Origin: Actinomycetota bacterium
GTDB lineage: Bacteria; Actinomycetota; Geothermincolia; Fen-727; Anoxymicrobiaceae
Reading direction: 5' to 3'
DNA length: 64,000 nucleotides
NCBI GenBank assembly: GCA_018831265.1
Contig: JAHJCO010000005.1
Span: forward strand, 1 to 64,000
The notes below the pieces were generated by a model. It did no database searches, was not told the DNA's origin, and was given only the letters and a program-made list of their open reading frames with translations. The translations under genes and the position numbers were made by a program. Shown piece after piece: positions 40,327-42,206 of the stretch (position 1 is the stretch's first letter; every line of letters begins with the position of its first letter).

Positions 40327-42118
40327 CGCGGCGGCCGGCCGGGAGTGGTACCGGCCGGAGACACTCAAACGCTTCGCGCGGGACCACTGGCCCGTGCTGT
40401 TCGTACTGGCGGTGATGCTGGCCGCCCTTCTCGTGAGGCGCTACTACGTCTCGAAGCACACCATGTACACCGCGGACTCATACTACTTTCTCACCCTCTC
40501 GCGCTCCATCAGGGACACCTTCACCTACACGGTCCGGGGGGTGACGCACACCAAGTACCTGCCCGGGTACCCGGTCGCGATATGGCTGTTCGGGTACCTG
40601 TCCGGCGGGCTGGTGCGCTCGGCGAACCTGATCTCCGTGTTCGGAGCCACGCTGGTGGTGTGGGTCACCTACGGGCTGGGCTCTGAGCTATTCGAGAGCA
40701 AATACGTGGGGATGGTCGCCTGCCTGGTGGTCGCCTTCCAGCCCACCTTCCTGAAGTGGACCGTGCTGCCCATGACCGAGGGGCTGTTCAGCTTGCTGTT
40801 CGCCTCGGGCCTGTACCTCCTGCTGACCGGGTGCAAGCGGGCCTCGCCCCCGAGGCGCCTGGCGGGGGCGGTGCTGGGCGGCCTCGCCTTCTCTGTGCGG
40901 TGGGAGGGGGTGCTGTTCCTGCCCCTGATGGTCCTCATCCTCATTATCTACTACAGGGGGTCCGAGCTGCGGGCCTGGGAGCCGCTGGTAATGCTGGGCG
41001 TGTTCGCCCTTCCGATGGGCATCTATGTCACGCGCAACCTGATCGCGACGGGCAAGATATCCCACTACATCGGGGAGTACCGGGAGTACAGCACGAAGAT
41101 CTCGTTCGCCGACTTCAAGCACCGCCTGAAGGTGTACGGGTGGAACGGCATGTCCGACGCCCTCTACCCCGTGGGGTTCGCCCTTGGGTCGCTCTGGATG
41201 CTGGTGCGCTGGAAGTGGAAGGCGTTCCTGGTGGTCGCCGGCTGGTTCAGCCTCTTCGTGGCCATGCACATGTTCTGGTACTACGCCTACGAGCGGTTCA
41301 TGGCCCCGGCGGCGCCAGCGGTGGCCCTGGCCATCGGCTTCCTCCTGGTGGACCTTGCCGTGCTGGCATACAGGGCGTTCGAGCCGGGCGGCACCCCCCT
41401 GCTGGAGGACTCATCGATTGGGGGCGGACTTCAGTCCGCCGGCCCGAGGCCGGTCTTCCCCTGGCTTCATCACAGACAGACCGGGGTGGAAGTCGCGGCC
41501 CAATCATCAACGATTGGGCGCGGACTTCAGTCCGCGGGAGTCCCTGCCGCGGCGAACAAGTCATGGAGATCCTCGTCGGTCCTGGGACTGGCCGCCGTCT
41601 TACTGGTCCTGGCGCTCGTCCTCGCGGGGCTGCTGGGGCACGGCATGGCGCGGGCGTCCAGCGAGATCACGAAGCAGTACCAGGCTCTCGCCGACGACCA
41701 CGGCGGGGCCGGCATGAAGCAGGCCGCGGACTGGCTGGAGGCGAACGCACCGGGCCGCGTGGTGGCCGTGGACGCGGGTCCGTACTTCACCTGGGAGTAC
41801 TACCCGGGTGACGTCCTCTACCTGCGGGCGGTTCCCTGGGACCTGCCGGTGGAACACGCCGACGTCGAGTACGTGGACACGGCCCGAAAGCTCTACGAGC
41901 GAGGGGTGCGCTACGTCGTCATCGGGGTCAGCGAAAGGCCGGTCTCCGAGGAGCTGACCATATTCGGCATGGTCCCGCCCTACACCGCCTGGCTCACGCC
42001 CGTGGCGGGCTGGGACAACCACTACGAGTTCGAGGCGGACGGAGCCGAGTTCGCGCCGCCCGTCGACGTGCAGACCGTCGTCTTCGAGGTGAAACCACCA
42101 CCCGGGCGAAACCTTTAA
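40307..42118 (+). CDS. GT-C membrane glycosyltransferase with palindromic insertion
   Basis: A 603-residue polytopic membrane protein of the ArnT/PMT kind. The first extracellular loop has YTADSYYFLTLSRSI and TKYLPGYPVAIW, the acidic and Pro-Gly pattern of this family; WTVLPMTEGLFSLLF follows. The soluble C-terminal part (about 450-600) is the usual extracellular domain. Residues about 369-418 are encoded by a palindromic repeat (41411-41540) lying between two helices and rich in Gly, Ser and Pro; it keeps the frame open. The ATG lies 20 bases inside the GT2-GT4 gene. The substrate is unknown. Confidence 0.8.
   Translation: MASGQDSAAAGREWYRPETLKRFARDHWPVLFVLAVMLAALLVRRYYVSKHTMYTADSYYFLTLSRSIRDTFTYTVRGVTHTKYLPGYPVAIWLFGYLSGGLVRSANLISVFGATLVVWVTYGLGSELFESKYVGMVACLVVAFQPTFLKWTVLPMTEGLFSLLFASGLYLLLTGCKRASPPRRLAGAVLGGLAFSVRWEGVLFLPLMVLILIIYYRGSELRAWEPLVMLGVFALPMGIYVTRNLIATGKISHYIGEYREYSTKISFADFKHRLKVYGWNGMSDALYPVGFALGSLWMLVRWKWKAFLVVAGWFSLFVAMHMFWYYAYERFMAPAAPAVALAIGFLLVDLAVLAYRAFEPGGTPLLEDSSIGGGLQSAGPRPVFPWLHHRQTGVEVAAQSSTIGRGLQSAGVPAAANKSWRSSSVLGLAAVLLVLALVLAGLLGHGMARASSEITKQYQALADDHGGAGMKQAADWLEANAPGRVVAVDAGPYFTWEYYPGDVLYLRAVPWDLPVEHADVEYVDTARKLYERGVRYVVIGVSERPVSEELTIFGMVPPYTAWLTPVAGWDNHYEFEADGAEFAPPVDVQTVVFEVKPPPGRNL
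41411..41540. repeat. REPIN-like palindromic element inside a coding region
   Basis: Two direct copies of GATTGGG.GCGGACTTCAGTCCGC (palindromes 41422-41439 and 41519-41536) flank a partial inverted copy (GAAGTCGCGGCCCAATC, about 41489-41505) and a GGCCCGAGGCCGG stem. The DNA is multiply palindromic yet translates in frame without stops as a loop of the membrane glycosyltransferase. Short GGACTTCAGTCC palindromes are otherwise intergenic elements. Confidence 0.8.
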
Positions 42119-42121
42119 TAG

Positions 42122-42206
42122 TGAATAGAATGGTGCCAGGCACCATTCTATTCAGGACGGTTCCCGGCGCCAGTGACTTGAATGGTGCCTGACCCCGTTC
42201 TGAGTC
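42122..42206. repeat. Perfect 33-bp palindrome plus GGTGCCTGACCCC element
   Basis: TGAATAGAATGGTGCC and its exact complement (42122-42137 and 42139-42154) surround a single A. After GGTTCCCGGCGCCAGTGA comes GAATGGTGCCTGACCCCGTT (42180-42199), identical to 55853-55872. It fills the gap before the DUF2079 gene and could stop transcription of the preceding gene. Confidence 0.85.

Follow-up and report, generated by a model that had tools for sequence, protein, structure and literature searches.

The palindromic segment at 41411-41540 of the analysed DNA (the window, a stretch of 64,000 nucleotides from an Anoxymicrobiaceae genome) is best explained, as a whole, as a REP/REPIN-like non-autonomous repeat which was very probably inserted in frame in the linker of a GT-C glycosyltransferase gene. 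An inward-facing pair of hairpins and a third, solo unit would have arrived in a hypervariable linker before the last membrane helix. The net repeat length would preserve the frame; with no stop codon in that frame, the protein would retain both its membrane domain and its C-terminal domain and would gain approximately 41-46 disordered residues. The window copy may have survived because this linker tolerates extra length, and the insertion was presumably neutral. Since REPs read in frame inside genes have already been described in several phyla, the window case is a new example, not a new phenomenon, and it opens no new question. It would, however, extend in-frame REP insertion to an uncultured actinobacterial lineage. 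It is also a clean case: the operon is conserved, the coding signal drops sharply and then recovers, and the linker is variable anyway. It would illustrate how a normally intergenic hairpin repeat becomes protein sequence where the fold is indifferent.

Table 1. Coordinates of the host gene and of the repeat units in the window.
Feature	Position	Strand	Basis and remarks
GT-C-fold membrane glycosyltransferase (PMT_2-like), 603 aa	40307..42118	+	Pfam, Foldseek, single ORF, conserved operon
REP unit 1, left-arm type	41416..41440	+	palindrome 41424-41439; exact family core
REP unit 2, right-arm type, degenerate	41481..41505	-	faces unit 1; TTGGGCCGGGACTTCAGTCCCGG with 4 changes, counted by eye
REP unit 3, left-arm type	41512..41536	+	palindrome 41520-41535; exact family core
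Repeat-encoded, lineage-specific residues (approximately 368-413)	41408..41545	+	edges approximate; homologues without the segment; negative coding score; pLDDT <50

Three repeat units are read in frame within one open reading frame

The initial annotation described two direct copies and one inverted copy of a GATTGGG-headed sequence inside the host ORF, whose frame was said to stay open. We find the same arrangement: the ORF is single and uninterrupted across the repeat, and all three units lie in frame within it, the inverted copy being a poor one. The direct copies, each 32 nt long (41411-41442 and 41507-41538), share 91% identity and have a spacing of 96 nt (3 x 32), therefore both are read in the same frame and give the peptides IGGGLQSAG and IGRGLQSAG. 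The direct unit has the sequence GATTGGG(g/c)GCGGACTTCAGTCCGC, with a near-perfect pair of units within 41416-41535. That annotation had missed that GCGGACTTCAGTCCGC is itself a palindrome, so that each direct unit alone forms a hairpin. The inverted unit is degenerate and much weaker than the direct ones; 17 nt of it (41489-41505) pair at 76% with the first direct unit and at 82% with the second. In the window copy, units 1 and 2 can thus be described as an inward-facing pair whose right arm is eroded and whose gap measures about 45 nt; the third unit comes next.

When GATTGGGNGCGGACTTCAG was searched in the window at up to 3 mismatches, 2 occurrences were observed, with 0.11 expected by chance. 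Folding of the 131-nt repeat segment as single-stranded DNA gave z = -3.9. All three plus-strand frames are open across the window copy, and the repeat-encoded segment has the predicted tryptic peptide QTGVEVAAQSSTIGR.

A second palindrome family, GAATGGTGCCAGGCACCATTC, was noted just 3' of the host gene, at 42128-42148 and 42180-42200; it has 8 exact sites in the genome and is similar to the terminal repeats of one Y1 transposase (C52:15452-16243). An Rfam match to a microRNA at 42125-42202 was below threshold and was rejected as chance.

The host gene appears to remain functional across the repeat

The host protein matches Pfam PF13231 (32.9 bits, cut-off 26.1), and a Foldseek search with its model retrieved ArnT, OST and PglB, which have the GT-C fold. 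In most relatives the operon has the order GT2, host glycosyltransferase, DUF2079, YfhO; the named relatives are mostly Actinomycetota MAGs, including Candidatus Geohydrothermomicrobium daggyaiense. The AlphaFold2 model, built with 11 sequences, gives one confident fold with a mean pLDDT of 78.7. Helices 329-358 and 414-464 enclose residues 362-413, for which pLDDT is <50; the repeat-encoded residues therefore most likely form a disordered linker. This agrees with the segment of about 45 residues between two helices proposed in the initial annotation, which the model places as a disordered loop between helices of the membrane domain. From the GT-C topology of ArnT, we take this linker to be on the cytoplasmic side.

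The in-frame coding score runs from +12 to +15 up to position 41350, is negative at 41410-41530 and returns to about +10 from 41590. Such a drop with recovery in the same frame is the pattern expected when a non-coding element is translated in frame. Invariant residues are kept on both flanks of the repeat in the homologue alignment, which argues that the host gene still works; the protein is probably made and active. It is unlikely that the gene was split or killed, with the frame open by luck and the downstream part being a remnant or separately started: although the codon use of the segment looks non-coding, both flanks show coding signal and conserved residues in one and the same frame, no other damage was seen and the protein is predicted as one confident fold.

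Homologues lack the segment, and their linkers vary in length

None of the homologues carries the repeat segment, though both flanks align in frame in the conserved operon, as the initial annotation had anticipated. The insertion event as such is read from this comparison and its edges would be approximate. To describe linker length, we measured the distance between fixed anchors at residues 329 and 463. This distance is 134 aa in the window protein, 82-100 aa in nine relatives of the same order and 70 aa in more distant ones, while it reaches 135 and 148 aa in the close relatives L032 and L033, which are without the repeat. Thus, the linker before the last helix is variable in length. When the linker was left out of the tree, the window protein grouped with L032, L033 and the short-linker L036. 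Given the long repeat-free linkers of L032 and L033, a long linker may be ancestral, and the repeat may have taken the place of other sequence.

These two relatives also bear on a further reading, that of an ordinary linker whose palindromes are incidental or stem from repeat gain in an already long linker. We consider it improbable. The region does vary in length, and the L032 and L033 linkers are equally long and Pro/Gly-rich. However, they are unrelated in sequence to that of the window, and no palindrome of this kind was seen when they were read; the DNA of the segment belongs to a dispersed family with 71 other sites, and codon use is foreign exactly over the repeat. A conserved, similar segment in all homologues, named beforehand as the observation that would speak against an inserted element, did not occur.

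The repeat belongs to a dispersed family of paired palindromes

Copies were located by pattern search in the genome that contains the window (3.87 Mb in 60 contigs), and the stretches surrounding each site were then analysed. Exact matching gave 49 occurrences of the palindrome and a search allowing two mismatches about 66, compared with 2 for a reversed control; the second arm type, CGGGACTTCAGTCCCG, has 39 occurrences within one mismatch. In total, 113 arms were found at 72 sites, with the consensus arms GATTGGGcGCGGACTTCAGTCCGC and, for the right arm, TTGGGCCGGGACTTCAGTCCCGG. The tag TTGGG is exact in 73 of the 113 arms; if one mismatch is allowed, 99 have it. Arms facing inward form 20 pairs, with gaps of 11-42 nt. 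A repeat present throughout the genome and often in inward-facing pairs is therefore REP/BIME/REPIN-like. The right arm at C53:168545 (L084) and the degenerate right arm of the window have an AGT to CAC change in common, hinting at a subfamily.

The exact 20-mer GGGNGCGGACTTCAGTCCGC had 0 copies in 396 other genomes of the phylum, and two genomes of the same taxonomic family carry a handful of variant units. The repeat family appears, from these sequences, to be restricted to the lineage. No bacterial paper on the core sequence came up in a literature search.

Copies of the family are predominantly extragenic

Genes were called with a home-made caller trained on the codon use of this genome, which gave sensible genes in the window and classed 95% of it as coding. 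Of the 72 sites, tandem genes flank 42, convergent genes 21 and divergent genes 2; a further 2 are at the edge of an analysed stretch, and 5 overlap called genes; hence 67 are outside called genes. If 0.88 of the genome is assumed to be coding, five or fewer genic sites have a probability of P = 1.5e-55. This count answers the question of the initial annotation as to how many copies lie in genes, with two of the five overlaps (C52:77480 and C52:267917, apparently at 5' ends of genes) rejected as misplaced start codons. Only the window copy lies deep in a well-supported gene, flanked on either side by more than 580 nt of good coding sequence, and two further genic copies touch variable C-terminal tails.

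The first of the latter, at C2:15337 (L088), is a single unit. It is read in frame (about PVQPRTEVRAQEP) within the variable tail at the C-terminus of C2:15261-17018, an antiporter-like membrane protein; the tails of relatives are without the unit, and homology weakens right at the repeat. The second, at C28:59444 (L094), is a unit with one core mismatch that makes up the extreme C-terminus (PGRGLRSAAGR) of the 460-aa protein C28:59412-60791, in the same reading frame as the window copy.

These copies could suggest an RPE-like element class adapted to life inside genes and spreading by harmless translation. In its favour, the window copy is read in frame with all three plus-strand frames open, a second arm is read in the antiporter-like tail and a third at the C-terminus of the 460-aa protein. 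Against this, nearly all 72 sites are intergenic, frames vary between copies (another candidate coding copy uses a different frame from the window copy, and no conserved peptide results), and one of the six frames of the left arm is stopped in 68 of 73 arms. This reading is thus very improbable and already largely refuted. As for an assembly artefact joining unrelated stretches at the repeat, it is scarcely credible: the assembly has 60 contigs and repeats can cause misjoins, but the two flanks correspond to one gene in the same set of relatives, in frame and in the conserved operon.

It is conceivable, though doubtful, that this REP-like family, marked by a TTGGG tag of its own, has recently been active in a lineage for which we found none described, and that it inserts mainly between genes but repeatedly adds disordered segments to variable linkers and tails of proteins; if true, the TTGGG family contributes new protein sequence.

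The family resembles REP and REPIN systems more than Rickettsia palindromic elements

REPs within ORFs have been reported in several species and phyla (PMC3733652). More than half of these inserts are dimers or groups encoding 20-30 aa, clusters encode 43-82 aa, and flexible linkers or loops have been suggested as tolerant sites (PMC3733652). The case described here agrees with the intragenic GTAG/CGTC REPs of that work: short dispersed hairpins, as dimers or clusters, are read in frame inside an ORF. The lineage is different, as Actinobacteria are unmentioned in the main text of PMC3733652, and the tag is TTGGG, which places the units outside the GTAG and CGTC superfamilies.

With REPINs and BIMEs associated with RAYT (PMC3116915, PMC2817692), the family has in common palindromic units and inward pairs with a short spacer, an overwhelmingly extragenic location and the presence beside some HUH tyrosine transposase genes. 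Here, however, there is no GTAG-like head, and the 113 arms are fewer than in Pseudomonas. What defines REP, REPIN and BIME elements is nevertheless found: a short imperfect palindrome in many dispersed copies, inverted doublets with a short spacer and predominantly extragenic sites.

Rickettsia palindromic elements (RPEs) are approximately 150 bp long, and nearly half of the first-described ones lie in genes (PMC10969869). The likeness to them drawn in the initial annotation stands for the window site, a dispersed palindrome in frame in a gene with functional-looking flanks, absent from homologues and located in a tolerant part of the protein. It fails for the family, which is almost wholly intergenic (one deep genic and two tail copies of 72 sites, in contrast to the large genic share of RPEs) and encodes no conserved peptide. 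Thus, the Rickettsia elements are the closest analogue for the single window site, but not for a gene-avoiding family.

A Y1/HUH transposase is a plausible mobiliser

The repeat is presumably mobile, and a Y1/HUH transposase of the RAYT type, acting on single-stranded DNA hairpins, is a plausible mobiliser. Thirteen Y1_Tnp genes are present in the genome, and HUH and tyrosine motifs occur in most of these. Only two of the Y1_Tnp genes, the close paralogues C21:3201-4016 and C20:36152-36934, have family units within about 350 bp: three units lie upstream of the former and a single degenerate, inverted one downstream of it, whereas the latter has two units on one side. No units were found beside the remaining Y1 paralogues of the genome, nor any of this repeat family in a relative with a 65% homologue. 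The NCBIfam RAYT model scored 67 bits in the Y1/HUH transposase test, below its cut-off of 80.

The Y1 family of C21:3201-4016 is multi-copy, with 23 matches including fragments, several of them at contig ends, and looks recently active. Several Y1 genes (L061-L066, L118) have their own distinct terminal inverted repeats, e.g., TACCTCAAACCAT / ATGGTTTGAGGTA, and in this they are like the published TIR-associated tyrosine transposases (PMC3733652).
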